Source: a virus
Reading direction: 5' to 3' (one strand)
DNA length: 41,480 nucleotides
IMG/VR virus record: IMGVR_UViG_3300044981_000104
Span: 1 to 41,480 of that record
This document shows positions 1-41,480 of the stretch, in pieces. Within the stretch, counting starts at the first letter, position 1. Each line of letters starts with the position of its first letter. The notes under the pieces were generated by a model that saw only the letters and a list, made by a program, of their open reading frames with translations, ran no database searches and was not told the origin of the DNA. The position numbers and the translations under genes were made by a program.

Positions 1-127
1 CGCCGCCCGATCGGAAAGCCGACGCCAAGCGCTATGCGGCGATGGCGGACTACCCGAAGATCGCCGACTTTGACACGCTCGAAGAGCACGCGGCCGCCGT
101 GCAGCTCTTCATGGGCGAGCAGCGGGC
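1..127. repeat. Terminal direct repeat, left copy
   Basis: These 127 bases are identical to positions 41354-41480. The scaffold gene reads in frame through the join, so the contig is circular or circularly permuted with a unit of 41,353 bp. A length of exactly 127 matches a common maximum assembly word size, so the repeat is more likely an assembly overlap than a physical terminal repeat of the virion DNA. Confidence 0.95.
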
Positions 128-728: not shown

Positions 729-753
729 CAGGTTCCCTATGTTCCACTTCTTG

Positions 754-1062
754 TCAGGGCGTTACCGTCGAATGGATCGCACGGTGGCAAGCTCGGCACA
801 ACCGCTGCACCAGCTCAGGTTGGTCGTAGTCTGGATGGTGGTTTTCCGCTGGATTGCCGCATTTCTCGCACGGACCGGTAGCACGTTTACCTCGTTGCTG
901 TTGCCTCAACGTGCGTTGTCGAACGCGATGCCGATGTCTGGCCTCCACAGACATTTCCGCAAAAGTTGGGCGATGCGACCGCATATAGGCCGCATGACAC
1001 GCTCGACAGTAACGCTGCCCTTTTCTGTTCTGCGGTTGCCCACATTTCGAACATGGTTTCAT
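754..1062 (-). CDS. HNH homing-type endonuclease, 102 aa
   Basis: This protein resembles the free-standing HNH nucleases that move between phage genomes. The N-terminus has a CxxC pair (CSKCGQ) and then YCRACH. The C-terminal half has CEKCG, HHPDY and LCRACHRAIH, the usual zinc-bound beta-beta-alpha HNH layout of phage nucleases (HH-x-DY, LC-x2-CH-x3-H). The start is ATG at 1062 (reverse strand); the same frame is open much further upstream, but that part lies antisense to the coat gene and is not credible. No clear Shine-Dalgarno is seen. It is the only minus-strand gene in the structural region and sits in the gap between scaffold and coat, a typical place for a mobile endonuclease. Its DNA target would be expected in the matching gap of relatives that lack it, by analogy with other homing nucleases. 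Confidence 0.85.
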   Translation of the reverse strand: MKPCSKCGQPQNRKGQRYCRACHAAYMRSHRPTFAEMSVEARHRHRVRQRTLRQQQRGKRATGPCEKCGNPAENHHPDYDQPELVQRLCRACHRAIHSTVTP

Positions 1063-1188
1063 GTGAGGGATTGTGGAACAAGTCGCTTTGCGAAACAACA
1101 GCGACCGACCTGGCGCCTGGGGATCTCGGCCCTGGCCGCGTGCGTGTCGGCGCTCGTGCTCCGGCACTTTGTCGCGGCCGAGACCGCG

Positions 1189-2442
1189 GTGTTCTGCGCC
1201 GTCAACAGCTTTGAAATCGTCGATTGGATGATGCAGGAATCGCTCGACCTGCTCATCAACAAGCTCGCCGTCGCGGCGATCATGAACACCGAAGTCCAGA
1301 AGGAATTCGAGCATGACTTCGCCCCCGGCGAAACCGTGCGCGTCAAATTCCCGCAGGAATACCTGATTCGGGACGGCTTGGCCTACACCGAGCAGGGCAT
1401 CAACCGCCGGAACACGACCGTCAGCTGTAACCAGATTTTCGGCGTCGATTTCGGCTGGGACAGCTTCGAGAAAGCCGTGAAGATGGAGCGCGGCGAAGCG
1501 CTCCTCCGCCGCGAGTATCTGGAGCCGGCCGTCGCGCAGATGGCGCAGGAAATCGAGAGCCGGTGCTGCAATTTCATGCGGCTCAATACCAGCAACGTGG
1601 TCGGCATTCTCGGCACGAATCCGGCGACGTTCGATGTCGCCTCCGCGGCCGCGCGCGAGCGGCTCATCGAGCTCGGCATGCCCGCGGGCAAAGACCGCGC
1701 GATGTTTGTGCCGCCGGCCGTCATGCGGGCCTTGAAGGCGTCGGCGATTTCCTACTTCAACCCGGTCACGGACATCAGCAAGCAGTTCCGCGAGGGCATT
1801 GTCGGATCGGGCGATGGGTTCGATTGGTATGAGTCGGTCTCGCTCTACCAGCACACCGCGGGCACCTGGGCAGCGGCCGTGACGGTCGCCACGAGCTCGA
1901 ATCAAGGGGACACGACGCTGGCGGTGACCTGCACGACCGGCGACACGTTCAATCAGGGCGACAAGTTCGCGATTGCGGCCGTCAATCCGACCAACCCGCG
2001 CACGCGGCGGAAAGTCGGCCCGAACACGCGGCAATTCGTGGTGTTGCAAGCCACCGTCGGCGCGGGGTCGGCGGCGACGCTGTCAATTTCGCCGGCGCTC
2101 TACGGGCCGGGGTCGCAGTATCAGAATGTGGACGCGCTTCCCTTGGCGGGCGCGGCGCTGACGCTCTTCCCTGGCACCGTGTCGCCGAACGGGCTCATCG
2201 GCACGGTCGGACTCGCCGCGCATACCGATGCCTTCGCCCTAGTCGGCGTCGAGTTCGAGAATCCGAAGAAGGGGTCGGTCGAAATCTCCGAGCAGCTCAA
2301 GGATGACGAAACGGGCATTCCGCTGGCGTTTGTGCGGGCGTTTGACCCGATCGGGCGCCGGTGGATCAATCGGTGGGACACCTGCATCGGCTTCGGGTCG
2401 CTCTGGAGCGACAACCTGGCCGTTGCGGTGCTGAGTTCCTAA
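1189..2442 (+). CDS. Major coat protein, P22 gp5-like
   Basis: This 417-aa protein is close in length to P22 coat (430 aa). The N-terminal NSFEIVDWMMQESL followed by a KEFEHDFAPGETVRVKFPQ-type segment, the central DVGV-type fold region, and the late GPGSQYQNVDALP, LFPGT and HRDAFALVG-type blocks (here HTDAFALVGV) are typical of P22-like coat proteins recalled from many phages. Relatives begin about four residues before NSFE, so the likely start is GTG 1189 (MFCAVNSFE). ATG 1228 would cut conserved residues. The frame stays open upstream to 739, but that part is antisense to the HNH gene and has no coat similarity. No good ribosome site precedes GTG 1189, which is odd for the most abundant virion protein and may reflect the HNH insertion displacing the original leader. 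Confidence 0.85.
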   Translation: MFCAVNSFEIVDWMMQESLDLLINKLAVAAIMNTEVQKEFEHDFAPGETVRVKFPQEYLIRDGLAYTEQGINRRNTTVSCNQIFGVDFGWDSFEKAVKMERGEALLRREYLEPAVAQMAQEIESRCCNFMRLNTSNVVGILGTNPATFDVASAAARERLIELGMPAGKDRAMFVPPAVMRALKASAISYFNPVTDISKQFREGIVGSGDGFDWYESVSLYQHTAGTWAAAVTVATSSNQGDTTLAVTCTTGDTFNQGDKFAIAAVNPTNPRTRRKVGPNTRQFVVLQATVGAGSAATLSISPALYGPGSQYQNVDALPLAGAALTLFPGTVSPNGLIGTVGLAAHTDAFALVGVEFENPKKGSVEISEQLKDDETGIPLAFVRAFDPIGRRWINRWDTCIGFGSLWSDNLAVAVLSS

Positions 2443-5512: not shown

Positions 5513-5830
5513 GTGCCCTCTACCTACTATCTGCGTCGGCCGGTGTCGCTGCCCGTGCCGGCGGCCGTGGCGGCCTCGCCTCCGCTCCAAGGCACTGGCC
5601 AAGCGGGCTTGGTCATGGTGACGTGGGCGAGCGTTGGGGGGGCGACCGATTACCTCGTCTCCGTCGGCACCGCCCCTGGCGCGAGCGACATCGGCACCTT
5701 TGACACGGGGAGCACCGCCCTGGCCTATGACGTGGCGCTGCCGTCCGGCGTCTATTACGTGCGCGTGGCCGCGGTCGTAGGCGGCGTGACGCAAAGTCCC
5801 TCCTCGCCAGATGTGGTGTTTAATGTCTAA
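5513..5830 (+). CDS. Fibronectin type III-like protein, 105 aa
   Basis: The start is GTG 5513 with GAGGG just upstream; no ATG is available in the N-terminal part. After a short leader (PSTYYLRRP) there is one beta-sandwich domain with the FN3 pattern: a Trp in VMVTWASV, then GATDYLVSVG, and later YYVRVAAV followed by a Ser/Pro-rich strand. FN3 modules are common in phage surface proteins and are thought to help attachment to cell-surface carbohydrate. Its stop lies inside the start region of the GH16 gene, so the two are coupled and may work together. Confidence 0.65.
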   Translation: MPSTYYLRRPVSLPVPAAVAASPPLQGTGQAGLVMVTWASVGGATDYLVSVGTAPGASDIGTFDTGSTALAYDVALPSGVYYVRVAAVVGGVTQSPSSPDVVFNV

Positions 5831-6659
5831 AGTCTGGGTCATCGGTGTCCTCGTGGCGTGTCTCTGCTGCGTGCCGCAGGCCCAACAAGTCACCGGGGTG
5901 ACGGCCTCCGTCCTGTGGACCCCGTTCAATCGCGCCGGCTCCTCGAGTAGCAACGGGCAATGTTTCACGCCCGCCAACGTCGCGCTAGGGAGCGGGCTGT
6001 TGACCTTGACGGCGCTGATCCAGAGCGCGACCTGTAGCAGCATTGACGAAGCGCCGGAAACGCTCGGGTATACGGCGGGCTATGTCGCCATGCGGTCGTT
6101 CAACTTCCTTTATGGGACGGTGGAGTTTCGCGCGAAGTTCGGGCCGTGCAATGGGGCCTCCTGCACCAATGTCGGCTACTGGCCCTCGGTGTGGATGAAT
6201 AGCGTCGGGTGCCAAGCGAGCGATCCGACCGGCACGGACAACAACTGCGATGAGGGCGAGATCGACATTGCGGAACTCTGGGGCGACTTCACGCATATCA
6301 ATCAGGCGCTGCATCGGCCCGATAGTAGCTGCGGCTACAACTGTGGCGGCGGCGTGACCGCCGGCCCCGACGACATGAGCACGCACTTCCATGTCTACGA
6401 TCTGGTGTGGACGTCGGGGTCGCTCAGTTGGTATATCGACGGGACGCTCACCACGGGCCCGTTGACCACGGGCGTGCCGACCGAAGCCTATTACGTGAAG
6501 ATGGATCAATTCGTGGGGGGGGCGATTGGCGGGGCGATTAATAACGCCTCGTTTCCCTGGCTCGAACAGATTGACTATCTGAAGGTCGGCTTCGGGTGCA
6601 GCGGCGTGAATCCGATGTCGGGCTGTTCGTCGATTCCCTTCGACGATGAGTTCTACTAA
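5823..6659 (+). CDS. Secreted GH16-family glucanase (laminarinase-like)
   Basis: This 278-aa product from ATG 5823 starts with a signal peptide (MSKVW, hydrophobic VIGVLVACLCC, cleavage near QAQ at residue 21). The mature part is a glycoside hydrolase family 16 beta-jelly-roll. It has the catalytic signature E-I-D-I-A-E at residues 146-151 (nucleophile E146, acid/base E151), preceded by GTVEFRAKF and WPSVWM and followed by HFHVYDLVWTSGSLSWYIDG, all in GH16 order. GH16 enzymes cut beta-1,3 or mixed-linkage glucans, agar or carrageenan; the substrate cannot be told here. Several Cys residues suggest disulphides in an exported protein. ATG 5811 is an alternative start but would lengthen the signal peptide without need. 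A depolymerase for host capsule or matrix is the likely role. Confidence 0.85.
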   Translation: MSKVWVIGVLVACLCCVPQAQQVTGVTASVLWTPFNRAGSSSSNGQCFTPANVALGSGLLTLTALIQSATCSSIDEAPETLGYTAGYVAMRSFNFLYGTVEFRAKFGPCNGASCTNVGYWPSVWMNSVGCQASDPTGTDNNCDEGEIDIAELWGDFTHINQALHRPDSSCGYNCGGGVTAGPDDMSTHFHVYDLVWTSGSLSWYIDGTLTTGPLTTGVPTEAYYVKMDQFVGGAIGGAINNASFPWLEQIDYLKVGFGCSGVNPMSGCSSIPFDDEFY

Positions 6660-9507: not shown

Positions 9508-10545
9508 ATGATTCTCGGGCTCGCCGGACAAACGGCCGCGGCGGAACTGGTCAACGCCAGCACGGGCGGTCCCTTCTCGGGCACCGTGACGGTCTACGTG
9601 ACCATCAACGGCCTTCAGGCGCTCGGCGGCGTGGGTGGCGGACTGGCCACCGCGATCGGCAATGGCCTCTACGAATATTATCCGGCGGCCGGCGAAACGG
9701 CGGCGCCGCTGGTGCTCTTTACCTTCACGGGCCCGGGCGCGATTCCGGTCACGGTGCAGTATGCGACCGTCACCGCCGCGCAGCAGGCGGCGCTCGTGGC
9801 TGCGGGATCGATTGGGGCGATTGTCGTCTCGCAGCTCATCACGGGGGCGCTCTTCGAGATCAAGGTCGCGCGCGCCGGCGACCAGGTCGCGCCCGAAACG
9901 CTGCAATACGGCCTGCAACTCTTCAACGAACTGCTCGATGGCTGGAACGGGATCCCCGACCATCGGGCCATCTATGCCGTCGACATCTCGACCTTCACGC
10001 TGGTGCCGAGCCTCGTGCCGCACACGATCGGGCCGACGGGCACGTTTGTCACCGCGAGTCGCCCCGTGAATATTGCCTTCGCGCAAGTGGACCTCGGGGG
10101 CGGGCCGCCTGATGTCTATCGCCCCATCTGGCTGCGCGACAAGCGCTGGTATGCGAATCAATCGGTGCCGGCGCTGACGAGTACCTTTCCAACGGATCTG
10201 TATTACGCGCCGGACTGGCCGAACGGGTCGCTCTATTTCTGGCCCGTGCCGACGACGGCCTACACGGTGCGCCTCTGGCTCCAAGCGCTCTTGCTCACGG
10301 CGAACCTGTCGACGACGGTGTCCTTTCCGCCGGGCTATCAGCTCGCGCTGCGGTTGACGCTCGCGGAACGGCTCGCGCGTGGCATGGGGCAACCGCTTTC
10401 GGCCGATCTGAAGCAGGATGCGCGGGACGCGCGCACGGCGATTTTCGCAAACAACGAGGAGATGCCGGCGCTGCACACGGCCGATAGCGGCCTCGGGACG
10501 GCGGCGCCGTCGACGTTCAACTGGATGGATCGAAGTTCACGCTGA
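9508..10545 (+). CDS. Head-closure / tail accessory factor, P22 gp4-like, with N-terminal beta domain
   Basis: This 345-aa protein has two parts. Residues about 1-105 form a beta domain with the pattern GPFSGTVTVYVT, YEYYPAAGE, LFTFTGPGAIPVTVQY, which is absent from P22 gp4. Residues about 110-345 are typical of the gp4 family: an N-terminal helix with PETLQYGLQLFNELLDGWN, then FTLVPSL, YRPIWLRDKRWY, DLYYAPDWPNGSLYFWPVP and a C-terminal helix (GYQLALRLTLAERLARGMG, DARDAR). P22 gp4 (166 aa) binds the portal after packaging, closes the head and seats gp10. The stop overlaps the next gene's start by one base, and that gene is gp10-like, as in P22 order. The N-terminal fusion is the unusual part. 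Confidence 0.8.
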   Translation: MILGLAGQTAAAELVNASTGGPFSGTVTVYVTINGLQALGGVGGGLATAIGNGLYEYYPAAGETAAPLVLFTFTGPGAIPVTVQYATVTAAQQAALVAAGSIGAIVVSQLITGALFEIKVARAGDQVAPETLQYGLQLFNELLDGWNGIPDHRAIYAVDISTFTLVPSLVPHTIGPTGTFVTASRPVNIAFAQVDLGGGPPDVYRPIWLRDKRWYANQSVPALTSTFPTDLYYAPDWPNGSLYFWPVPTTAYTVRLWLQALLLTANLSTTVSFPPGYQLALRLTLAERLARGMGQPLSADLKQDARDARTAIFANNEEMPALHTADSGLGTAAPSTFNWMDRSSR

Positions 10546-12005
10546 TGCCCCGCTTCGCGGCGATGATCGGCGGCTCCGGCATTGTCCAGTCGATGCTCGT
10601 CGACTCCGAGCGCACCGTGAACTGGTATGTGGAAACCTCGCAGTCGCCGACCGCAACCAGTCCGCGCGCGCTCTATCCGACGCCGGGCTTTCAGCCGTGG
10701 AGTCAACCGCTGACCGACACGATTGGGCGCGCCTCCTGCAACGCCGGCGGCCGCATCTTCTTCATCCTCGGGTCGACCCTCTTTGAAGTGAACGGCGATG
10801 GCTCGTGGACCCCGCGCGGCACCGTGCTCCGCGACCAGAACCCGGCGCAACTCCTCTACAACGGCATGATCGGCGGCCAGATCGGCATCAGCAGCGGCGG
10901 CAACTTCTACTGCTACGTCCTCGCCACGAACACCTTGACGCTCGAGCTGACGGGCCTCTGCACGATGGCGGCCTATGCCGACGGCTTCTTTCTCGCGCTC
11001 AACAGCGCAACCGGGCTCGTCTTGCTCTCGGCTTTGAACGATGGCACGACCTGGAATCTCGGCGGCGCGCTCGAGGCCTTCTTTCAGCGCGAACTCTTCC
11101 CCGATCCGTGGCAAACGCTCTTCGCCGATAGCAACAATCTCATCTGGCTCATCGGCACCGAAACCTTTGAAGTCTGGTACAACACCGGCGTCGGCCTTCA
11201 GCCGTGGGCGCCGCTCAGTGGCCTGAATGGCCTCTACGGCATCCTCTCGTCGTGGGCGTTTGTCGTCACCGCGCTCGGCAATTTCTGGCTGAGCGCGAAT
11301 CGGCAGGGCGCGGGGCAGTTTGTCGGCACGAGCGGCTCCATCCCGCAGCCGATCCTGAGTTATGCCTTCGATACCGCCGTCGGCACGTATTTCCATGCGG
11401 GCCAGGTCGTGAACGCCGAGTGCATGGCCTATCAGCAGCTCGGGCATACGTTCGTGCTCATTCACTTTCCGAGCGTGCCGGCGACCTGGTGCTACGACGT
11501 GACCGAGCAGTCCTGGGCGGAACGCGGGCAGTGGAACCCGACGACCGGACTCTTCGGCCTCTGGACGCCGCGCGTCTATCAACGCGCGTTCGGCAAAGAT
11601 GTGGTCGCGGGCTGGACGGGGAATGTGCTGTGCGACATGAATCCGGCCTATACGACGGAGTTTGACGGCGTGACCGGCATCGTGCGCGAGCGGACCACGC
11701 CCGGGCTCGTGGATGAGCACAAGCGGCGACCCATTACGCAAATGGAACTACTGATGGATGTGGGGATCACGCCACTCCAAACCGGGCTCGGCAGTAATCC
11801 GCTCGTGACGCTGCGCACGTCGGTCGATGGCGGTCGCACCTTCGGGAACGAGCGGCAGGCGAGCCTGGGGAAGATTGGCGCCTATCGCACGCGCGTCTAT
11901 TGGCAGCAGCTCGGCGCGCCGGCCGATGCCGTCTTCCGCGTACGCTCGAGCGATCCGGCGCCGAGTCGCATCGTCGATGCGTTCATCAACAACCTGGAAG
12001 CCTGA
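10545..12005 (+). CDS. Packaged DNA stabilisation protein, P22 gp10-like
   Basis: The product is 486 aa, near P22 gp10 (472 aa). The start MPRFAAMIGGSG, then TVNWYVE, RALYPTPGF, LFEVNGDG and later LIGTETFEVWYNTG, FVVTALGNFWLSAN, TFVLIHFPS, TWCYDVTEQSWAERG and SDPAPSRIVDAF are typical of this family, which folds as a beta-propeller-like plug. In P22, gp10 binds gp4 and forms the base to which tail needle and tailspikes attach. The start overlaps the previous stop (TGATG) and its own stop overlaps the next start in the same way, so the connector genes are tightly coupled. Confidence 0.85.
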   Translation: MPRFAAMIGGSGIVQSMLVDSERTVNWYVETSQSPTATSPRALYPTPGFQPWSQPLTDTIGRASCNAGGRIFFILGSTLFEVNGDGSWTPRGTVLRDQNPAQLLYNGMIGGQIGISSGGNFYCYVLATNTLTLELTGLCTMAAYADGFFLALNSATGLVLLSALNDGTTWNLGGALEAFFQRELFPDPWQTLFADSNNLIWLIGTETFEVWYNTGVGLQPWAPLSGLNGLYGILSSWAFVVTALGNFWLSANRQGAGQFVGTSGSIPQPILSYAFDTAVGTYFHAGQVVNAECMAYQQLGHTFVLIHFPSVPATWCYDVTEQSWAERGQWNPTTGLFGLWTPRVYQRAFGKDVVAGWTGNVLCDMNPAYTTEFDGVTGIVRERTTPGLVDEHKRRPITQMELLMDVGITPLQTGLGSNPLVTLRTSVDGGRTFGNERQASLGKIGAYRTRVYWQQLGAPADAVFRVRSSDPAPSRIVDAFINNLEA

Positions 12006-13629: not shown

Positions 13630-14457
13630 ATGCCGACCTCGTATCTCGGTCCCGGCGGCCAGCCGCTCACGCTGCCTCCCGATTGGGGCGGCTGGAATTC
13701 CGGCCAGCAACAGAGCTGGCTGTATCAAAACGGCGGCTATCCGGCGGGCGGCACGCCGCCAGCGGCGCCGACCGTGCCGACGCCGCTCGATGCGAACGGC
13801 AACCCGATCAGTTATCCCGGGGGCACGAGCGTTACGGGGCAATCGGTCACGCCGGCGGGGGTGGCCCCGCCGCCTGGCGCGACCCCCCCAGCGGCGACCC
13901 CGCCGCCGGCCTCCAGCGGCGATGGCGGGGGCGGCGGGGGTGGCGGCTCGAACATTCCACCGCTCGGCCCTCCGAGCCCCTTCGGCGCCCCGTTCCCGAC
14001 GCTGCCATCGACGCCCGTCTTCACGCCGCCGTCCTACACGCCGCCGCCCGCGTTCCAGGCGCCGAGCGTCGCGCAGGCGATGGCGGCTCCCGGCTACCAG
14101 TTTCAGGAACAGCAAGGCCTGACGGACTTGCAGAACTGGGCCGCCGCGAAAGGCACCCTCAACGATTCCGACACCGGGCAAGCGCTCGAACAGTTCGGGC
14201 AGCAGTCGGCGCAGTCCGATTACGCGAACGTCTACAATCAGGCGCTCCAGGGCTACAACACGAACTATCAGACGCAGTATACGGACCCGTATGCGATTGC
14301 CTTCCAGGGCGCGCAGGCGGCGTTCGCGCCGCAGATGACCGGCTACACGACGCAGGCCAATCAGGGGCAGGCGAACTGGCAGGATGCGTATAACCTGTGG
14401 TTATCGCAGAACCAGCTCACGCAAGGCACGCAGGGCCTCGCGATTCAGGCAGGCTAA
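13630..14457 (+). CDS. Putative internal virion / DNA-ejection protein with PGYxF helix motif
   Basis: The start is ATG 13630, immediately after the previous stop. The first half is low complexity: Pro/Gly/Thr with a run of eight glycines near residue 100 and the phrase LDANGNPI near residue 56, which also occurs in the protein at 17201. The second half has APGYQFQEQQGL, then LQNWAAAKGTL, TGQALEQFGQQSAQSDYANVYNQALQGY. This helix pattern (PGY-x-F, AARG-like turn, Q-x-YA-x2-EY-x-N) recurs in ejection or tail-tip proteins of many podovirus-like and siphovirus-like phages. The C-terminus is Gln/Tyr-rich. Assigned as an ejection protein by that pattern and by neighbours on both sides. Confidence 0.6.
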   Translation: MPTSYLGPGGQPLTLPPDWGGWNSGQQQSWLYQNGGYPAGGTPPAAPTVPTPLDANGNPISYPGGTSVTGQSVTPAGVAPPPGATPPAATPPPASSGDGGGGGGGGSNIPPLGPPSPFGAPFPTLPSTPVFTPPSYTPPPAFQAPSVAQAMAAPGYQFQEQQGLTDLQNWAAAKGTLNDSDTGQALEQFGQQSAQSDYANVYNQALQGYNTNYQTQYTDPYAIAFQGAQAAFAPQMTGYTTQANQGQANWQDAYNLWLSQNQLTQGTQGLAIQAG

Positions 14458-14460
14458 CCG

Positions 14461-16146
14461 ATGGCCCTGACGCCTTCGCCCTACGTCTACCCGCAGCCGC
14501 AGCCGTCGCCATACGCGATGTCGATCTCCGAGCTGATGGAAAAGCAAGGAGAAATCGCGAGCCAGCGCGCGCTCGCGCTCGGGAACATCAACGCGCAGGC
14601 GGTGCAGGGCGTGGCCGGCGCCGTCGGCGGCGCGATCCAGCAGGCCACCGATCCGACCCGGCAACTGAATCAGCAGAAGGTGGCGGCGAACGCGCGCCTT
14701 GTGAAGATGCAGCAATCGCTCGCCACGCTGCGTCAACAGGCGACGAATCCGGACGGCACGCCGAACGATGAGATCTATGGCGAGCTGATCAAGAAAGGCG
14801 GCTTTCCGCCGGACATCGAAGCGCAAGCGCTCGGCGAACTCGGCTCGATTCAGGACTACACGCGGAAGGGCCAAGCGGCGTCGGCGGAAGGGCTGGCCAG
14901 TGTCGGCGCGGCGCTGTTCCATACCGTGGGCGCACTTCCGCCTGGGGATGCGCGCGATGCCGCGGTCGTCACGGCCGCGCATCTTGCCTCGCAGATTCCG
15001 GGCGTGCCGCCTGACAAGGTGCAGCAGGTCATGGCGCAGATTGCGAACGGCGCGGACCCCTCGCAAGTCGGTCTCGCGTTGATGGGCATGTCGCCCTCAA
15101 AGCGCTATGAGGACGAGCTGAAGCCGTTCACGACGGCACGCGGCGCGGTAACGACGACACCCGCGCGCGCAGCCGCCGGAATGCCACCGCTCGCCGAAGG
15201 GCAGCCCGTGCCCCCGCCGCAACCAACGAAAGCGGGATTGGCGGCTGCGGCACATCCTGGCGATCCGGAAGCCGCCCTCGCCGCGATGACGCCGCCGAAA
15301 ACCGATCCGCTGGATGAGGTCGTCACGCTCAAGACGGTCGTTGACGGCAAAAACGTAGAACTGCCGGTCACGCGCCGGGACATGCTTGCACACGGTCCCT
15401 ATCCCTCGCAGCCCAATGCCACGACCGGCAACGCCGACATGGAGCAGGAAAACGCGAAAACGGTCGCCGCCGGCATCATCGCTGGGGATACCGCGCCATC
15501 GATTCTCGAAGGCACGCGCGGCACGTCACAGGGCATGGCGCTGCTCGCCGAAATCAAACGGCAGGGCGGCGACTCCGACAAGATTCTGCGCGACTGGACC
15601 GCGACGAAAACCGCCATCCGCTCGCTCGATTCCCCGCAACAGCTCCGCCTCGCGGAAGTCATCAACAAGGCGTCGGCCTCGACCGACCAGCTCGAAACGC
15701 TCAATCAGCAGTGGCAGGACGTCGGCGCACGCTTCGGCATCAAAGCCTTCAATCGCGCCTCGCTCACCGCTGCGCAGAACGGCTTTTATGGGCCGCAGGC
15801 GCAGAGCATCGCCCAGCGGCTTGATGCGCAGATCGCCGACGTGACCAGCGAACTCGGCCAGGGCATCATGGGCGGCGCCTCGCCGACCGACCATGCGCTC
15901 TCGCTCGCGTCGAAGAACTTGTCGAGCGACTGGACGGCCGCGACACTCAGCGATTCGATCAAGCAGGTGCGCTACAACTTGAACCTCGCGCAGAACGCAC
16001 GCAACGATTTGCTCGGGCAGATGGGCGTGACCAGCACGCAGGTCCAGACGCCGCCGCCGAAAGCCGCCGCACCGCCCACTGCGCCGACCGGCTGGCACTA
16101 CGTCGCGAAACCCGGCGGCGGCTGGACCGCCGTGGAGGATAAGTGA
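14461..16146 (+). CDS. Putative internal virion / DNA-ejection protein, 561 aa
   Basis: The start is ATG 14461, three bases after the previous stop. The protein is mostly helical and rich in Ala and Gln. It has an N-terminal SISELMEKQGEIASQRALALG segment, a Gly/Ala-rich AVQGVAGAVGGAIQQATDP segment that could insert in a membrane, long amphipathic helices to residue about 215, a Pro-rich linker (about 225-285) and a second helical block (about 325-545). The C-terminus ends in GWHYVAKPGGGWTAVED, a short tail seen in several phage internal proteins. Its size and composition fit the large ejection proteins. The stop overlaps the next gene's GTG by four bases (GTGA), so the deoxyhypusine-synthase-like gene is coupled to it. 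Confidence 0.6.
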   Translation: MALTPSPYVYPQPQPSPYAMSISELMEKQGEIASQRALALGNINAQAVQGVAGAVGGAIQQATDPTRQLNQQKVAANARLVKMQQSLATLRQQATNPDGTPNDEIYGELIKKGGFPPDIEAQALGELGSIQDYTRKGQAASAEGLASVGAALFHTVGALPPGDARDAAVVTAAHLASQIPGVPPDKVQQVMAQIANGADPSQVGLALMGMSPSKRYEDELKPFTTARGAVTTTPARAAAGMPPLAEGQPVPPPQPTKAGLAAAAHPGDPEAALAAMTPPKTDPLDEVVTLKTVVDGKNVELPVTRRDMLAHGPYPSQPNATTGNADMEQENAKTVAAGIIAGDTAPSILEGTRGTSQGMALLAEIKRQGGDSDKILRDWTATKTAIRSLDSPQQLRLAEVINKASASTDQLETLNQQWQDVGARFGIKAFNRASLTAAQNGFYGPQAQSIAQRLDAQIADVTSELGQGIMGGASPTDHALSLASKNLSSDWTAATLSDSIKQVRYNLNLAQNARNDLLGQMGVTSTQVQTPPPKAAAPPTAPTGWHYVAKPGGGWTAVEDK

Positions 16147-17201
16147 ACCCGCGCGAGATGCGCCAAGGCCGCGATGGCGCAATGCAGCCGCGCGCGAATG
16201 AGCCGCGGCGCTTGCGACCCGTGCAAGCTGGCCCGATCTCAGATTTCATTGGGCATCATTTCCGTCACTTCAACGCCCTTGCGCTCGCTTCGGCGGCTGA
16301 TGGCTATCGCGAATTGATCGCTCGCGGTGGCGCGATGCTGATTTCATTAGCTGGAGCGATGAGCACCGGCGAACTCGGGTTGACGCTGTCCGAGATGATT
16401 CGCCAAAAGAAAGTGCAGGCGATTAGTTGCACGGCGGCGAACTGCGAGGAATCGGCCTTTAACTTAGTGGCACAAAATGAATACGTGCCCATTCCGGACT
16501 ACCGAGATAAAACACCGGCCGACGATCAGCAACTCGGTGAGCAAGGCTTAAACCGCGTGACCGATGTGGCCTTGCCTGAGCATGGTGGCATGGACATTAT
16601 CGAGGATGGCCTCATCGACCTCTGGAAGAAAGCGGAGCGGCAGCACCAACGGTACTTTTGGCATGAGTATTTCTATGAACTGCTGACATCAGGCGCGCTG
16701 AAGAGTCACTATCAGAGTGACCCTGAGGATTGCTGGCTTCTGGCTGCCGCCAACGCCAAGCTCCCCTTGTATGTCCCTGGCGTTGAGGATTCGACCACTG
16801 GGAATGTCTTCGCCGCGTTGATGCTAAAGGATGACATTCGAGATCCGAGCATTATCAAAACGGGCTTTGAATACATGGTGGATCTCGCACGGTGGTACGT
16901 ATACACATCGAATGAGGACCGACCGATAGGATTTTTTCAAATTGGCGGCGGTTTGGCAGGCGACTTTGCTATTTGCTGCGTGCCGCTCTTGAAGCTCGAT
17001 TATGGGAGAGAGCAAACGCCGGAATGGTCCTACTTCTGTCAAATCACAGACGCGGTAGAAAGCTATGGCGGTTACAGCGGCGCCTCGGCCGCCGAAAAAA
17101 ATTCGTGGCGAAAATTGAACTTGGACACCAAGCGGTTCATGATTCAAAGCGATGCCTCCATTTGCGCCCCCCTGATCTTTGCGTCGGTCCTGGGCTGGTA
17201 A
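16143..17201 (+). CDS. Deoxyhypusine synthase-family protein (bacterial DHS-like subfamily)
   Basis: The 352-aa product starts at GTG 16143. It is recognisable as a deoxyhypusine synthase homologue: GPISDFIGHHFRHFNA, MLISLAGAMSTGELGL, CTAANCEESAFNLVA, a YRD-T-P block, YFWHEYFYELL, VPGVEDSTTGN, IGFFQIGGGLAGDF, SYGGYSGAS and SDASICAPLIFA appear in family order and at full length. Comparison with human DHS from memory puts E318, W322 and K324 at the positions of E323, W327 and catalytic K329, while the human 'GGGVVKHH' His is replaced by GGGLAGDF, as in bacterial homologues. True DHS modifies eIF5A, which bacteria lack; DHS-type enzymes transfer an aminobutyl group from spermidine, so a polyamine reaction is likely. 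GC is visibly lower (29/60 in 16441-16500) and codon use differs from neighbours, a sign of transfer. Confidence 0.9.
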   Translation: MNPREMRQGRDGAMQPRANEPRRLRPVQAGPISDFIGHHFRHFNALALASAADGYRELIARGGAMLISLAGAMSTGELGLTLSEMIRQKKVQAISCTAANCEESAFNLVAQNEYVPIPDYRDKTPADDQQLGEQGLNRVTDVALPEHGGMDIIEDGLIDLWKKAERQHQRYFWHEYFYELLTSGALKSHYQSDPEDCWLLAAANAKLPLYVPGVEDSTTGNVFAALMLKDDIRDPSIIKTGFEYMVDLARWYVYTSNEDRPIGFFQIGGGLAGDFAICCVPLLKLDYGREQTPEWSYFCQITDAVESYGGYSGASAAEKNSWRKLNLDTKRFMIQSDASICAPLIFASVLGW

Positions 17202-18661
17202 TGCCGCCGCAGACGCCGCGCCCGCCCGATCTCGACGCGAACGGCAACCCCGTGCCGACCACGAATGCCGATGGGTCCGTGAGCACCACGCTGTCGGCGC
17301 GCGGCCCTAAGCCGCCGGATCTTGACGCAAACGGCAATCCGGTGCCGGACGCTCCTGCGCCGACCTACCCCTGGCGGCGTGCGATGACGGCAGGCGCCGA
17401 CAAGCCTGGCATTCCCCCGGATGTGGCCGCGCAGATGCGCGCAATGGGCGCCGGGACGCCCGTGCCCTCCAGTCCGGCCGTCGTTGGCGATGTGCGGGGC
17501 GCGGTCGCCGGTGTCGCGCCAGCGGTGGGCGGGATGGTCGGCGGCATGGTGGGCGGCATTCCTGGCGCCGCGGTGGGCGGGATGGCGGGCGACGTCGTGC
17601 GACAAGCGCTCACGCCCGCGCCGAGCGGCGACCGCGGCTCAACATTGGGACGCATGGGGCGCGAAGTGGTGGATCTCGGCGAATCGGGGGCTGCGCAAGG
17701 GGCCGCGCAGGCGGCCGGCGAAGGGGTGGCATGGACCGGGGGCAAGCTGGCGTCCTGGCTGATGAATCGGGCCACGACGCGTGTAACCGCGCAGCTCGCA
17801 CGCGAGTTTCCCGACCTGAGCGATACGCTCATCGACAATGCCCTGACGGTCTCGAAGGGCGGCTATGAAAAAGCGAAAGGCATGTTGGTCGCGGCAAAAG
17901 CGGTCGCCAATGATGCGCTGAAAACCGCCGATGCGACGGGTGCGACGATTCCCGTCAGCATGAATGCCGATCTCGCCGACAGTTTCAAAACCGCCGTGCT
18001 TGATCAAGCGCTCAAACGGGGCCAAGTGCCGACGCATCCCGATACACCGCTCGCCGTGGCCTCGCAGCGGCTCTCCCCCGAGCTCCAGGCACTCTTTGAC
18101 CAGGTGGATGCGTCCGTTGGCAAGACGTTCGATCTGACGCCCTCGCAAGCGGACTTGTTCAAAACGCAACTGCAGAAGGAATCGCGCGCGCTGTATCTTA
18201 ACCGGGTCGCGCCAAACGGGCCACGGGCCTTGCAGGCCGAAGCAATAGAGAAAGCGGATTTTGCCACGCAGCTGAACAGCGCGATTGATGGTGTGGCGTC
18301 CGGCTACAAAGCGGCAAACGCCGCCGCGAAACCGCTCATCGGGGCGGTGCGAGGCATTCAACAAGCGATTCGCCCGAGCGGGAATCTACTACAGGCGATG
18401 GTGCGACCCGCCGTAGGAGTCGCGCTGGGCGGATCGGCGGGCAGTTACGAGGGCGGCACACCGGGAGCCTTGGCGGGGGCGGTCATCGGGGGGGCCATGA
18501 CGTCGCCGGAAGGGATGTCGCGCGAAGCGATCACGCTGGCGCATCCGGTGACACAAGCGATTCTCCGACAACTCCCGCGGGCCTTGGCCGCGGCGGTCGC
18601 GAAGTATCTGCCTAGTGGCCCAACAGCGCCATCAGGAACAGCACTGGCACCAGCACCGTGA
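17201..18661 (+). CDS. Putative DNA-ejection protein with glycine-zipper segment, 486 aa
   Basis: The start is ATG 17201, overlapping the previous stop by one base (TAATG). The N-terminus carries two copies of PPDLDANGNPVP (residues about 7-18 and 37-48). Next comes a Gly/Ala/Val-rich region with GGMVGGMVGGIPGAAVGG (residues about 112-129), a glycine zipper that could form a membrane channel. A long helical block follows (about 190-400), and then a second Gly/Ala-rich segment (VGVALGGSAGSYEGG, GALAGAVIGGAM). This plan of two membrane-active Gly zippers around a helical body fits the large internal proteins that form a trans-envelope conduit during DNA ejection. The stop overlaps a GTG, but the next gene more likely starts at 18694. 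Confidence 0.6.
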   Translation: MPPQTPRPPDLDANGNPVPTTNADGSVSTTLSARGPKPPDLDANGNPVPDAPAPTYPWRRAMTAGADKPGIPPDVAAQMRAMGAGTPVPSSPAVVGDVRGAVAGVAPAVGGMVGGMVGGIPGAAVGGMAGDVVRQALTPAPSGDRGSTLGRMGREVVDLGESGAAQGAAQAAGEGVAWTGGKLASWLMNRATTRVTAQLAREFPDLSDTLIDNALTVSKGGYEKAKGMLVAAKAVANDALKTADATGATIPVSMNADLADSFKTAVLDQALKRGQVPTHPDTPLAVASQRLSPELQALFDQVDASVGKTFDLTPSQADLFKTQLQKESRALYLNRVAPNGPRALQAEAIEKADFATQLNSAIDGVASGYKAANAAAKPLIGAVRGIQQAIRPSGNLLQAMVRPAVGVALGGSAGSYEGGTPGALAGAVIGGAMTSPEGMSREAITLAHPVTQAILRQLPRALAAAVAKYLPSGPTAPSGTALAPAP

Positions 18662-18693
18662 GCGCGAGCGCACACAGGCCACAGAGGACCGCA

Positions 18694-19866
18694 ATGCAGT
18701 CAATCACGCCATCAATCACAACAGCACCTCTAGCTGAGCCTACGCCACGTCGCAGGGCGAAAGTCAATCTGCACGCGATTGCACTGGTTCTGGGCCTCTG
18801 CTTGCTTGGCATCCTCCGGCCGCACGCGCAGGGCTTCAGCCTGTCGCCGGCGCCCGTGCTCGAGGTCACCGACACGACCGGCGCCATCGTCCCGCTCGCC
18901 TGCGTGTGGTCCTACAATTCTGGCACTACGACCCCGGCCACGACCTATAGCGACACGCTCGGCACGGCGAACACGAATCCGATCATCGCGGGCGCCGATG
19001 GCACCTTCAAGGTCTATCTGCCGCTCGGCGTGACGCTCAAATACGTCGAGGAGAACGTGCCGTGCTCGTCGGCCTCGCACGGGCCGGTGCTGCGGACCAT
19101 CGACCCCGTCGCGGCGGTGCCCGCCTACACCTATACACCGTGGACGGTCGGCCAGCCGACCGATGCCGGGGTCGTCAATAACTGGGTGCCGAATTCCGGG
19201 GCCATCAGTGGGAGCACCGAGCTCTTTATCAACACGACCGGCCTCACGATTACCGGGTTTGCCGGCGGGAAGGTGGCCGGGCAGCAGATCCTGTTGCAGA
19301 ACATCGGCACGGGCATTGTCTCGCTGGTGCATCAATCCTCCTCGTCCAGCGCCGGCAATAAGATCAATAACTTGGTCGCCTCGGGGCCGACGTCGCTCGC
19401 GCCGGGCGGCGTGGCGCTCTACACCTATGACGGCACGACCTATTGGCGCCTGGTGAGTTATGACCAGGGCGCGTGGATTAGCCTGCCGTTCGGGGCCTTG
19501 GCCTATACGGGCGATGCCGGGGGCCTCATGACCTGGACCGTGACGGCGGGCGAGGTGATGACGCAAGCCTACAAACTGCGCGGGACCGATGTCACGGTGA
19601 CCTGGGATATTCAAGGCTCGACCACCAGTGGCACCGCGGCGAATTATGTGCAAATCTCGAATCGCGCCTGGGGGGGGTTCGTGCCCGCCTTCACGAAGCT
19701 GGATGCCGTCGCCTATCTCAATGACGGCACGACGGTGAGCAGTGGCTTTGCCGCCGTCGCGGCGAGTGGCACGTCCTTCTCCATCTACCGCGTCTCAGCG
19801 GCGAATTATGCGCTCGTCTCGGGTGGCTTCTACACTTATGGCACCGTGACGATTCCCGTGCAATGA
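18694..19866 (+). CDS. Tail fibre-like protein with N-terminal signal/anchor, 390 aa
   Basis: ATG 18694 is preceded by AGAGGA at good spacing; GTG 18658 is an in-frame alternative that overlaps the previous stop. After about 27 polar and basic residues there is a hydrophobic segment (ALVLGLCLLGIL) ending in AQG, which looks like a signal peptide or anchor. Residues about 47-120 match the widespread fibre N-terminal module: VLEVTDTTGAIVPLACVWSYNSGTTTPATTYSD in pattern, then NTNPIIAGADGTFKVYLPLG (usually 'NTNPIVLDANGRA-x-IWL'). The rest is repetitive beta sequence with a C-terminal jelly-roll look. It is the best candidate in this half of the genome for a host-binding fibre. The hydrophobic N-terminus is unusual for a fibre. 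Confidence 0.65.
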   Translation: MQSITPSITTAPLAEPTPRRRAKVNLHAIALVLGLCLLGILRPHAQGFSLSPAPVLEVTDTTGAIVPLACVWSYNSGTTTPATTYSDTLGTANTNPIIAGADGTFKVYLPLGVTLKYVEENVPCSSASHGPVLRTIDPVAAVPAYTYTPWTVGQPTDAGVVNNWVPNSGAISGSTELFINTTGLTITGFAGGKVAGQQILLQNIGTGIVSLVHQSSSSSAGNKINNLVASGPTSLAPGGVALYTYDGTTYWRLVSYDQGAWISLPFGALAYTGDAGGLMTWTVTAGEVMTQAYKLRGTDVTVTWDIQGSTTSGTAANYVQISNRAWGGFVPAFTKLDAVAYLNDGTTVSSGFAAVAASGTSFSIYRVSAANYALVSGGFYTYGTVTIPVQ

Positions 19867-27013: not shown

Positions 27014-27231
27014 AGGTCATCCGCCATCGCTTCAATATCTGGGTCGATGTGCCTGCCGTCTATGGCGATGGGTGGTCAAAGTATCCCGACTATTCGGCTG
27101 GCGAAGTCGGTCGCATGCTGCGCCGCGCGTTGCATGATCGGTTCGAACTCAAAGCCGTTGTCGAACACGCCGACAGCGTGACCGTTGATGAACAGGAACC
27201 GCCAGTGGATCATCGGCTGGTGGGACGATGA
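27010..27231 (+). CDS. Small hypothetical protein, 73 aa
   Basis: ATG 27010 overlaps the previous stop as ATGA, and its own stop overlaps the exonuclease start in the same way. The product is an alpha/beta sequence: MKVIRHRFNIWVDVPAVYGD, then PDYSAGEVGRMLRRALHDRF and AVVEHADSVTVDEQEP. There is no signal peptide or cysteine motif. It probably belongs with the recombination genes by coupling. The function is unknown. Confidence 0.6.
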   Translation: MKVIRHRFNIWVDVPAVYGDGWSKYPDYSAGEVGRMLRRALHDRFELKAVVEHADSVTVDEQEPPVDHRLVGR

Positions 27232-31453: not shown

Positions 31454-32457
31454 TGAGGCCCGGCACTGTCGTGCTATTCACGTGGAGAAATATCGTGCCA
31501 GTCGCTAATCAAGTCATCACAGACCGTTATGCTCTCTATCTAGGCGACGCGATGGACGTGATGGGATCGCTGCCGGCCGAGTCGGTGCATCTCTCGCTCT
31601 ATTCGCCGCCGTTCGGTGGCCTCTACCAATACAGTTCCGACGAGCGTGACCTCTCGAATTGCCTGAACTATGGAGAGTTTTTCGAGCACTACACCTTCGT
31701 CGTGCGCGCGCTGCACCGGCTCACGCGCCCGGGTCGCATGTCGGCCGTGCATTGCATGGACATTCCGACCGGCAATACCGGCCTCGATCATCTGCGCGAC
31801 TTTCCCGGCGACATCATCCGCCTGCACGAGCGCGAAGGCTGGGCGTATGTCGCGCGCTATCACGTCTGGAAAGAGCCGCTCACGGTGCGAAACCGGACGA
31901 TGACGAAGACGCTCTCGCACAAGGTGGTCACGGTGGACTCGACGCGGTGCAGTATTGCCAATGCGGATTACGTGCTCATCTTTCGGCGCTCGGGCACGAA
32001 CACGATTCCCGTCGAGCATCCCACAGGCTTGACCGACTACTACGGGGAGCGGAAACCGCCGGCAGAAGATTTACGCTTTCGCGGCTGGCAGGGCAGTCAG
32101 CTCGAAAACCGCTATTCGCAGTGGGTGTGGCGACAATATGCCTCTGCGTTTTGGGACGATGTGCGTCTCGATCGGGTGCTTCCGCATACGCAGGCACGCG
32201 TCGAAGAGGACGAGCGACACGTGCATCCATTGCAGCTTGATGTTATCGAGCGCGCGCTCGTGCTGTGGAGCAATCCCGGCGAAACCGTGCTGACGCCATT
32301 CATGGGTGTCGGCTCGGAAGTCTACGGCGCGGTGCGCAACGGGCGCAAAGGCGTGGGCATCGAACTGAAGGCGTCCTACTTCCACCAGGCGGTCAAGAAT
32401 GTCGAGGCCGCGCTCAGCGAACGCACCGCGGAGCAAACGCCGCTCTTTGCCGAATGA
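31444..32457 (+). CDS. DNA methyltransferase, N4-cytosine/N6-adenine type (beta order)
   Basis: ATG 31444 has GGAGG about 7 bases upstream inside the helicase gene; ATG 31453 is a weaker alternative. The 337-aa product is an amino-methyltransferase: motif IV is SPPF (54-57), after LYLGDAMDVM and before GGLYQYSS. The S-adenosylmethionine motif I is at the C-terminus, TPFMGVGSEVYGAVRNGRKGVGIEL in pattern (FMGVGS at 286-291). The order IV before I is the beta class. SPP[FY] is more frequent in N4-cytosine enzymes, but N6-adenine cannot be excluded. It likely modifies phage DNA to avoid host restriction. No partner restriction enzyme is seen; a PD-(D/E)xK resolvase-like gene follows directly. Confidence 0.85.
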   Translation: MGVMRPGTVVLFTWRNIVPVANQVITDRYALYLGDAMDVMGSLPAESVHLSLYSPPFGGLYQYSSDERDLSNCLNYGEFFEHYTFVVRALHRLTRPGRMSAVHCMDIPTGNTGLDHLRDFPGDIIRLHEREGWAYVARYHVWKEPLTVRNRTMTKTLSHKVVTVDSTRCSIANADYVLIFRRSGTNTIPVEHPTGLTDYYGERKPPAEDLRFRGWQGSQLENRYSQWVWRQYASAFWDDVRLDRVLPHTQARVEEDERHVHPLQLDVIERALVLWSNPGETVLTPFMGVGSEVYGAVRNGRKGVGIELKASYFHQAVKNVEAALSERTAEQTPLFAE

Positions 32458-38186: not shown

Positions 38187-40436
38187 ATGGCATCGGATGC
38201 CGCGCTCCTCGAGGAGATTCGCGACCGCCATGTCATCGCCGCGCGCGAGTGGGCCGCGATTCTCGACGAGGCGCGCACCGATCGCCTCTGCGTCGCCGGC
38301 GATCCCTGGCAAGCCCTCGACCCGCATGGCAAGAAGCAGCGCACCAGCGCGAAACGGCCGTGTCTCGCCTCCGACGAACTCAACCAATACATCAACCAGG
38401 CGGTGAACGGCGTGCGGGCGAACCCGCGCGCGATTCACTTCGCGCCGACCGGGAACGGCGCGAACGACACAGGCGCGGAGTTCTACGAGAACCACACGCG
38501 CGAAGTGGAATACCGCTCGCACGCGCAGATGGCCTATTGCACGGCGTTCGCCGATGCCGTGACGAGCTCGATTGGCTGGCTCGTGGTGCGCGCCAAGCGG
38601 GAGCACCCGCGCACGTTCAATCAGAACCTCTGGATTGAGCCGGTGGTCAATCCCGATCAAGTGCTCCCGGGGCCGAATGGCGTGTGGCCGGATGGGCGCG
38701 ACCTGAAATATCTGTTCTACCTGAATCCCTTTACCCTGGCCGAATTCAATCGCCAGTTCCCAAAGGCGACGCGCAAGAGTTTCGGCGGGGAGGCGCGCGG
38801 CCTGGCGCCCGGCTGGATTATGCGCGATGCCGGCCTCGGGCGCGATCTCATCTACGTTGCCGAATACTGGACGCTGCGCGCGGAGACCCGCAAGCTCATC
38901 GCCTTTCGGCCGACGGGGATGAGCGATGAGGCCGCGCTCATGGCGCTCGAAGATGAGTTACCAGACGGCAAGCTGCCGGAGGGCATGGAGAACATTCGCG
39001 AAGAGGACGTCGATGACGAGCGCGTTGAGGCCTGCCTCACGAACGGCTTTGAGATTCTCGATGCGATTCCGTGGCAGGGCCGGCATCTGCCGTTCGTGTC
39101 GTGCCGCGGCAAGGCGCTCTATGTCGATGACGGCGGCGCGGGCTCGAGTCTGCGCCTCTTGAGCCTCACGCGGCTCGCGCGCGACCCCTACATGCTCTAC
39201 TGCTACATGGTCTCGAGCGTGGCGGAAGCGATTGGCGGCGTCACGCGCTCGAGCTATATCGCCTATGAGGGCCAGATCGTGCATCCGGACCTGTGGGCGA
39301 AGGCGGCGCACGAGCCGGTGCCGGTGCTGACCGTGCGCGAACGCACGGAGATCACGCCCCCGACGGTCACGCTGCCGCTGCCGCAAAAGCAATCCTGGGA
39401 TCCGCCGCTTGAGAACGTCGAAGCCGCGAAAGAAGGCGCGCGGCGGGCGATCCAAGCCGCGATGGGCATCTTGCCGCAGGCGACACCGATGCAGGAGCAA
39501 CAAGACCAGCGCTCCGGCGTCGCGCATCAGCAGATTGAGTCGGGCTCGCAGCGTGGCGCGTTTCACTTCGTCGATAACTACGACCTGATGATCGAGCGCG
39601 TCGGCATCATCCTCGAAGAGCAAATCGAACTGCGGCTCGATACGAAGCGCCAGGTGCCGGTGCGCGAAGCCGTGCAGGGCAAAGGCTCCGTCGTCACCAT
39701 CAACGACCCGAGCGATCCCGACGGCATCTTCACGAAGGGCGATTACCGCGTGACCGTGAGCACGGGGCCCGCGACCGAAAGCCAGCGGGTCGAGGCCGCC
39801 GAGTTCGTGGATGGCATGGTGGGCGCGCTGCCGATGATTGCCCAGATCGCCGGCGCGCCCGATGCCAAGAAGCTCTTGGCGAAATCGATCAAGCTGAAGA
39901 ACCTCGGCCCGATTGGCGAGGAGATTGTCGACTTGCTGGATCCGCCGCCGCCGCCCGGGCCGAATGGGAAGCCACTGCCCCCGGAGATGCAAGCGCTAAT
40001 GGGCAAGCTGCAACAAGCGCAGCAGCAGATTCAACAGTTGACGCAGCAACAGCAAACGGAGAGCCTGAAGTATCAGAGCGCTGAGAAGCTGAAAACGATG
40101 GATCTCACGTTCCAGCGCGAAAAGCTCGAGCGCGATTCCGAGACGAAGCTCGCCGTGGCCGAGCTGTCGGCGAAAGTCGACCGGATTGCGCTGTTCCTCG
40201 AAGAGCGGGACCGGATGGGCCTGCGGGTCCAGGGCGTGCAAGACAAGATTCACGAGGCGCGGGAGGCGGTGAAGGACCGGCTGCACGAGGTCGTGCTCGC
40301 GTCGGGCGCGCATCACAGCGACATGATCCAGCAGACGCAGGCGCACCAGCACGGCCTCGAAGCGGGCGCGGTGGCGCATCAGCAAGCGCTCGAGGCCCAA
40401 CCGCCGGACGCGGGCGTGAACGGGAATGGCACGTAA
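38187..40436 (+). CDS. Portal protein, P22 gp1-like, 749 aa
   Basis: ATG 38187 starts a 749-aa protein, close to P22 portal (725 aa). Blocks such as LASDELNQYINQAVNGVRANPRAI, GNGANDTGAEFYENHTREVEY, CTAFADAVTSSIGWLVV, IEPVVNPDQVLPGP, EYWTLRAET and QQDQRSGVAHQQIESGSQRGAF (in pattern) are typical of the P22-like portal family. Residues about 600-700 form a Gln-rich helix and coiled coil (QQAQQQIQQLTQQQQTE), as in the barrel of P22-like portals. The ring is the gate for DNA packaging by TerL and the seat for the gp4-like protein. The C-terminus (HHSDMIQQTQAHQHGLEAG) is His/Gln-rich. Confidence 0.9.
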   Translation: MASDAALLEEIRDRHVIAAREWAAILDEARTDRLCVAGDPWQALDPHGKKQRTSAKRPCLASDELNQYINQAVNGVRANPRAIHFAPTGNGANDTGAEFYENHTREVEYRSHAQMAYCTAFADAVTSSIGWLVVRAKREHPRTFNQNLWIEPVVNPDQVLPGPNGVWPDGRDLKYLFYLNPFTLAEFNRQFPKATRKSFGGEARGLAPGWIMRDAGLGRDLIYVAEYWTLRAETRKLIAFRPTGMSDEAALMALEDELPDGKLPEGMENIREEDVDDERVEACLTNGFEILDAIPWQGRHLPFVSCRGKALYVDDGGAGSSLRLLSLTRLARDPYMLYCYMVSSVAEAIGGVTRSSYIAYEGQIVHPDLWAKAAHEPVPVLTVRERTEITPPTVTLPLPQKQSWDPPLENVEAAKEGARRAIQAAMGILPQATPMQEQQDQRSGVAHQQIESGSQRGAFHFVDNYDLMIERVGIILEEQIELRLDTKRQVPVREAVQGKGSVVTINDPSDPDGIFTKGDYRVTVSTGPATESQRVEAAEFVDGMVGALPMIAQIAGAPDAKKLLAKSIKLKNLGPIGEEIVDLLDPPPPPGPNGKPLPPEMQALMGKLQQAQQQIQQLTQQQQTESLKYQSAEKLKTMDLTFQREKLERDSETKLAVAELSAKVDRIALFLEERDRMGLRVQGVQDKIHEAREAVKDRLHEVVLASGAHHSDMIQQTQAHQHGLEAGAVAHQQALEAQPPDAGVNGNGT

Positions 40437-40954: not shown

Positions 40955-41480
40955 GCGAGCCTGCTGCGGCCGTCGCGACGCCCCCGGCCCCTGCGCCGGC
41001 TGCGGTGAGTCCCGAGACGATTCCCGCCAGCGCGGCGGCCATCGTGTCGGGCGACACGGGCGCCTACCGCGAGGCCCGTCGCGCCGAGAAGCTGGGCAAG
41101 CCGCTCGCGGCCGTGCCCGCGCCGGTCGAGACGCCAACGTCTGACACGCCGGCGGCCGCCGACGGCGCGCCCCCGGCCGAACGGCATGTCTCCCGTCGCC
41201 AGCAAGCGATCAACGACGCCGCCCAGAAAGCCGCGGAAAGTGCCACCACGGCGCTCCGCGACGAGAACGCCCGCCTCAAAGCGCAACTCGCGTCGCGTCC
41301 GGCGGCGCCGGCACCCGCGCCGGCACCCGAGACCCCCAAGCCAGCGGCACCCGCGCCGCCCGATCGGAAAGCCGACGCCAAGCGCTATGCGGCGATGGCG
41401 GACTACCCGAAGATCGCCGACTTTGACACGCTCGAAGAGCACGCGGCCGCCGTGCAGCTCTTCATGGGCGAGCAGCGGGC
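40951..41480 (+). CDS. Scaffolding protein, N-terminal part (gene continues at 1..728)
   Basis: ATG 40951 overlaps the previous stop as ATGA. The gene runs off the end of the window and continues in frame at its start to TAG 728, for a 376-aa product. The N-terminal 30 residues are Ala/Pro-rich. Residues 33-51 hold SGDTGAYREARRAEKLGKP. A Pro/Ala linker follows, then a helix-rich segment (RQQAINDAAQKAAESATTAL and RDENARLKAQL, a likely coiled coil). Another Pro/Ala linker leads into the part at 1..728. Scaffold function is inferred from its place between portal and coat and from the helical, Pro/Ala-linked composition. See the left-end entry for the C-terminal features. Confidence 0.75.
   Translation, partial: MSEPAAAVATPPAPAPAAVSPETIPASAAAIVSGDTGAYREARRAEKLGKPLAAVPAPVETPTSDTPAAADGAPPAERHVSRRQQAINDAAQKAAESATTALRDENARLKAQLASRPAAPAPAPAPETPKPAAPAPPDRKADAKRYAAMADYPKIADFDTLEEHAAAVQLFMGEQR
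41053..41091 (+). repeat. N-terminal copy of the DTxAYRxxRxAEK motif in scaffold
   Basis: These bases code residues 35-47 (DTGAYREARRAEK). A second copy, residues 358-370 (DTSAYRAIRLAEK), is coded at 669-707. The DNA of the two differs at several synonymous sites, so the likeness is kept at protein level. Confidence 0.75.
41354..41480. repeat. Terminal direct repeat, right copy
   Basis: Identical to positions 1-127. See the left copy. The scaffold reading frame is preserved when the two copies are merged. Confidence 0.95.

Follow-up and report, generated by a model that had tools for sequence, protein, structure and literature searches.

Homospermidine is made in bacteria such as Anabaena and Ca. 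Pelagibacter by SpeY, a homospermidine synthase that resembles deoxyhypusine synthase (DHS) (Burnat et al. 2018, PMC9992855, PMC10407285), and gene clusters of the type ADC-agmatinase-speY are a described arrangement of this pathway (PMC10407285). Another DHS homologue, the caldomycin synthase CdmS of Thermus, couples two diamines via its catalytic lysine and carries F and L at the positions of human D243 and D316 (PMC10981699). In human DHS itself, K329 and H288 are catalytic and D243, D316, E323 and W327 bind spermidine (PMC9117371), and an N-terminal "ball-and-chain" element is essential (PMC7226451). Viruses are already known to synthesize homospermidine, through the HSS proteins of phages phiRSL1 and Motura and of chlorovirus PBCV-1; these belong to an unrelated family, relatives of carboxyspermidine dehydrogenase, and a SpeY homologue was reported absent from viruses and phages in the same 2023 PNAS survey (PMC9992855). 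Polyamines neutralize the packaged DNA of some phages (PMC3281028), and phage JG004 and N4-like phages depend on spermidine (PMC9992855; PMC3120641), JG004 requiring its synthesis by the host (PMC3120641).

The window analysed here, a whole stretch of 41,480 nucleotides that constitutes an entire IMG/VR record, encodes a member of the DS/DHS superfamily with a DHS fold and a catalytic lysine (Table 1). Translated from a GTG start codon, its product matches Pfam family DS with an E-value of 3.4e-35 (122 bits; cut-off 27) over positions 11-287 of the 288-position profile, and is thus the full-length DHS-like protein that a preliminary description of the locus had proposed; the start is backed by homologues that align at the N-terminus (NPREM in the window, MLPRE in the related phages G001 and L038). 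All seven NCBIfam matches are to DHS-family models and all fall short of their cut-offs; NF001980 (homospermidine biosynthesis protein; 99 bits, cut-off 450) scores best, with the DHS equivalog TIGR00321 at 79 bits (cut-off 304) and the bis-guanidino enzyme model NF002699 at 63 bits, likewise far under its own. The AlphaFold2 (AF2) model (pLDDT 89.6, pTM 0.87) adopts the DHS fold, as the best Foldseek matches in the PDB are all DHS (TM 0.73, by query, to 6p4v), with residues 1-20 unstructured. A motif at the N-terminus, (M)xPR[ED][MTI], occurs in the window's lineage and in a second lineage of ~45-kb phages and in none of the bacterial members; by analogy, it might represent a tetramer "ball-and-chain" element or a virion tag.

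Profile alignment to human DHS equates K324, E318 and W322 with K329, E323 and W327, in agreement with the earlier alignment by eye. All 48 aligned sequences share these three residues, which, together with D216 and R138, are among the 11 positions that do not vary in this set, two distant cellular sequences included. The other half of the six key human residues is replaced, H288, D243 and D316 corresponding to F275, N221 and Y311 of the window protein; across the clade, the H288 position is F in 27 of 30 viral and 16 of 16 bacterial rows, the D243 position is N in every row and the D316 position is Y with one exception. Judged by these residues, the window enzyme is not a classical deoxyhypusine synthase, which requires His288, Asp243 and Asp316, and the spermidine chemistry that the preliminary description had carried over from DHS gives way: with all three replaced in the whole clade, homocoupling of a diamine (putrescine or agmatine) is the better guess.

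These replacements apart, the phage enzyme shares with human and archaeal DHS the fold, the catalytic and spermidine-binding K329/E323/W327 equivalents and the NAD site region, at a structural identity of 15-16%; on the phage side, no gene for a substrate of the classical eIF5A/EF-P type is present in 12 phage records. SpeY is similar in its fold, in its catalytic Lys/Glu/Trp and in the polyamine operon context that it has in common with the bacterial sisters of the phage enzyme; moreover, a SpeY-like protein of Nostoc, with F, L and F at the D243, D316 and H288 positions, matches the phage clade at the last of them. However, SpeY-like proteins encoded by Nostoc plasmids are 22-25% identical to the window protein, and the phage enzyme, with its predicted activity, falls into a clade of its own marked by N/Y at D243/D316; its gene is without pathway partners and often lies in a virion block, whereas the bacterial sisters are clustered with putrescine-making genes. 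CdmS also lacks D243 and D316, but the residues that replace them (F/L) differ from those of the phage clade, whose substrate is putative.

Where tested, the phage copies are under strong purifying selection: dN/dS is about 0.04-0.10 in close pairs of other phages with usable dS, and about 0.15 in the window-L038 pair, for which dS is near saturation. At 118 conserved columns the window copy has 14 deviations, among them W214V, L101C and G98A, and the G001 copy 18, against 0-5 in most relatives; possibly, specificity has changed or constraint has relaxed in this pair, and the function may have shifted or weakened in this lineage.

The window bears an exact repeat at both termini, its ends run on continuously inside G001 (41.6 kb) and, conversely, both ends of G001 overlap a single stretch of the window; because of the repeat and the mutually continuous ends, both are complete circularly permuted genomes. 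The window's portal protein matches annotated P22-like portals in phage records, as well as portals of phages such as VvAW1, and a tRNA search of the window returned none. Located 3' of the head-closure gene and within the virion block, the DHS-family gene is coupled to both neighbours by overlaps, as originally noted: TAAGTGA at 16143 shares 4 nt with the upstream 561-aa ORF, and TAATG at 17201 shares 1 nt with the downstream 486-aa ORF. Placement between ejection-type genes, which the preliminary description had also asserted, stands as far as the virion block goes; neither flanking gene obtains a function from Pfam, PHROGs or the PDB, and calling them "ejection-type" is a judgement based on where they lie, on their composition and on Gly/Ala-rich segments. 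The lower GC content of the gene is borne out: it is 0.555 (GC3 0.645), and those structural genes that were measured range over 0.63-0.69 in GC and 0.74-0.84 in GC3.

Table 1. Features of the window and records carrying or lacking the DHS-family gene
Feature	Record	Position	Strand	Basis or remark
Terminal repeat, left copy, 127 bp	Window	1..127	.	Exact identity with right copy
Major head protein	Window	739..2442	+	phrog_283, E=1.4e-44
Head-closure Hc3-like protein	Window	10545..12005	+	phrog_578, E=3.6e-55
Virion-block gene, 275 aa, upstream of DHS	Window	13630..14457	+	tblastn to DHS-less capsid relatives L010, L009, L005, L006
Virion-block gene, 561 aa, ejection-type by position	Window	14461..16146	+	G001 counterpart 98% identical; weak similarity to L038
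DHS-family (PF01916) enzyme	Window	16143..17201	+	Pfam, alignments, AF2 model; 352 aa
Virion-block gene, 486 aa, directly downstream	Window	17201..18661	+	Gly/Ala-rich membrane-type segments, duplicated N-terminal motif
Weak phage depolymerase C-terminal domain match	Window	18658..19866	+	PF25692, E=1.5e-4, under Pfam cut-off
Portal protein, P22-like	Window	38187..40436	+	phrog_156, E=1.1e-57
Terminal repeat, right copy, 127 bp	Window	41354..41480	.	Exact identity with left copy
Second lineage, ~45 kb	L059, L060, L062-L067, L071, L111, L112			~300-aa gene, enzyme, 1000-1400-aa protein
Near second (~45-kb) lineage	L045, L072/L076
61-kb lineage	L041-L044			3330-aa ORF 3' of enzyme
Further lineage groups	L053/L054/L073; L040/L051/L052/L055/L057
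Further lineage groups	L047/L056/L058/L075; L046/L048/L049; plus single records
Empty site, second lineage	L110	5224
Empty site, second lineage	L113	4408
Empty site, second lineage	L115	2935
Empty site, second lineage	L117	5991

Two related phages, G001 and L038, carry the enzyme at the identical place, the three copies being 57-61% identical to one another. The structural and packaging regions of the window and G001 are mostly 91-97% identical (head protein, 93%), whereas the enzyme gene (61% at the protein level) and the gene that follows it are strongly diverged; the structural genes of L038 are about 36-73% identical to those of the window. Like a phage auxiliary metabolic gene, the enzyme gene thus belongs to a true phage genome and keeps its place there, as the terminal repeat, the portal and head proteins and the synteny of the three phages show. 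Among more distant capsid relatives, the enzyme gene was not found in 13 of 14 fetched records, many of which are fragments. A recent gain, suggested earlier on the basis of GC content, is therefore tenable in so far as these relatives are without the gene, but not as a last-minute acquisition, because three phages share it at the same place at 57-61% identity. An empty site cannot be proven in the window's own lineage, where BLASTP of the flanking proteins against the same-position genes of the DHS-less capsid relatives gave no significant match; it is provable in the second lineage only. Directly after the DHS gene, G001 (record L016, 2441-3064) has a 208-aa Cys/His-rich ORF that is absent from the window; although without Pfam matches, by eye it looks like a homing-endonuclease-type gene, which could explain why the enzyme gene and the one following it are mosaic between such close phages.

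A profile built from 14 phage and bacterial sequences retrieved 42 loci with a DHS-family gene from IMG/VR, where a single-sequence scan had given no match, and the enzyme is accordingly not the lone curiosity of one phage. Gene neighbourhood sorts the carriers into at least seven lineages of phages, namely that of the window and at least six unrelated groups, with lengths between ~41 kb and the 465 kb of one contig; a terminase (phrog_2) is present on 10 of 38 records, the 465-kb contig included. In four enzyme-less members of the second lineage, homologues of both neighbours abut directly; the enzyme gene of that lineage is therefore an optional one, inserted between two genes of the virion block. 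One protein in each of two neighbour sets scanned matched the DarB-like antirestriction family (E 0 and 1.1e-11); the match tables give no member name, and the most obvious candidate for the match at E 0 is the 3330-aa ORF of L044. DarB belongs to the virion head of phage P1, and polyvalent proteins of this sort are presumed to enter the cell together with the injected DNA (PMC5512222). On two viral contigs (L039, 9174-10972; L070, 1334-3417), the DHS-family gene directly adjoins an agmatinase-family gene, and either the phage has a two-step polyamine module there or the DNA comes from a host.

Outside IMG/VR, three different members found no match in INPHARED (50,697 records, isolate-based), PHROGs hold no counterpart, the BFVD viral structure library has none at E below 0.001, and plasmid records yield solely distant cyanobacterial and archaeal homologues. 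Together with the published survey (PMC9992855), these searches uphold the earlier statement that no phage system built on this enzyme has been described. About six changes of label between phage and bacterial are needed on the tree, at least two of them forced by its starred branches, and a single origin of the phage copies is unsupported.

The bacterial members of the clade, 48-57% identical to the window protein, come from Binatota, Verrucomicrobiota, Planctomycetota, Bacteroidota and others, and of 45 neighbours of their genes 11 are pyridoxal Orn/Arg decarboxylases and 11 are arginase-family agmatinases. It is these operons and the replacement of H288, D243 and D316 that suggest an enzyme coupling small amines. 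None of 36 phage records encodes a decarboxylase, and 2 of 38 have an agmatinase-family gene; the substrate amines would therefore come from the host. The phage enzyme is probably, though far from certainly, an NAD-dependent synthase of a homospermidine-type triamine that draws on host amines and is made late, with the virion proteins; what it uses and makes, when it is expressed and what it does for the phage are all inferred. On this reading, the gene encodes a functional amine transferase that has the DHS fold, depends on NAD and resembles bacterial SpeY, and it would be translated late, coupled to virion proteins; NAD would take a hydride off one molecule of host putrescine (or agmatine), and the 4-carbon piece, held on K324 as an imine, would be handed to a second amine. 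The product would be homospermidine, or a bis-guanidino form if agmatine is used, and the extra triamine may enlarge the polyamine pool during DNA packaging, neutralizing DNA charge or sustaining late translation. Use in packaging would fit late co-expression with virion genes, and a diffusible product, as opposed to one virion partner, fits the occurrence of the enzyme beside unrelated genes in seven or more lineages. A plain metabolic role does, however, leave the tight virion-gene coupling and the conserved N-terminal motif unexplained.

An alternative is a protein target: in a phage deoxyhypusination, a lysine in a virion protein encoded alongside, or in a host protein such as EF-P, would receive an aminobutyl group. 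The enzyme has the fold and catalytic lysine for it, the gene is wedged by overlaps among virion genes in two lineages with non-matching structural genes, DarB-like matches lie among the neighbours in some lineages, and the faster divergence of the copies in the window and in G001 would be in keeping with a co-evolving partner. We nevertheless regard such a target as unlikely, as the human spermidine-binding and catalytic residues are replaced, polyamine operons hold the bacterial sisters, the neighbours are unrelated across lineages, other lineages are without a virion-gene neighbourhood of the window's type, and an EF-P-type gene (EFP_N) is found in none of the 12 phage records; rather improbable, too, is that a co-expressed protein of the virion, or an ejected one, receives the aminobutyl group on a lysine, or that the enzyme itself is packaged and ejected to carry out this modification in the host. 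The position in the virion block, the disordered (M)xPRE motif, conserved like a targeting tag in phage but not bacterial copies, and the many deviations of the window copy from conserved positions could also mean that the protein now serves in the virion, as a structural or an ejected component, and has lost its enzymatic role or kept it as a secondary one; this is very unlikely given that K324, E318, W322, D216 and R138 are retained in every copy, dN/dS is low in close pairs of other phages, and phage lineages that have neither the motif nor a virion neighbourhood still carry the enzyme.

There is also a minor chance that the enzyme's product is caldomycin or aminobutylagmatine from agmatine, as with Thermus CdmS, instead of homospermidine from putrescine: loss of D243 and D316 is common to both enzymes, and the bacterial sisters lie beside ADC and a ureohydrolase-family gene, fitting agmatine coupling followed by ureohydrolase action, but N/Y in the phage clade are not the F/L of CdmS, and the window protein scores lower with NF002699 than with NF001980, both far under cut-off. 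It is scarcely credible that host DNA caught up in viral contigs accounts for the gene, or that it is a passenger in decay. Its nearest cellular relatives are ordinary bacterial enzymes, its GC is unlike that of the phage and an agmatinase-family gene adjoins two viral-contig copies; yet it has the same location in three related phages, of which two are complete permuted genomes, terminases accompany it on 10 of 38 records, relatives have empty sites and dN/dS is well under 1.

The known polyamine toolkit of phages is thereby widened by an enzyme type found in at least seven uncultured phage groups, in several of which the gene is locked among virion genes, and which a 2023 biochemical survey of virus-borne polyamine enzymes had sought without finding. 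The set comprises directly testable enzymes and gives a way into two matters, the long-standing one of how packaged phage DNA is neutralized and that of why some phages need host spermidine; a protein-lysine target, if true, would be a hypusine-like protein modification new to bacteria and phages.

Several minor features of these genomes were also observed. Tandem short repeats open the large protein 3' of the enzyme: PPDLDANGNPVP occurs twice in the window (17201-17370), an ETDPYAGTPI-type repeat twice in the same start region of G001 (L016, 3070-3200), and the L059 group has a WKPPDYAKP-type repeat (L059, 10987 onward). In the virion region of the window, the ORF at 5811-6659 contains a Glycosyl hydrolase family 16 domain (PF00722, E 1.1e-9), and its product is perhaps a capsule or polysaccharide depolymerase. 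A 542-aa ORF (27228-28856) combines an N-terminal half assigned by Pfam to 5'-3' exonucleases with a C-terminus that resembles RecT-like annealing proteins in PHROGs (weakly in Pfam), and is possibly a fused exonuclease-annealing protein. Finally, a DNA N6/N4 methyltransferase gene (31444-32457) adjoins a helicase gene.
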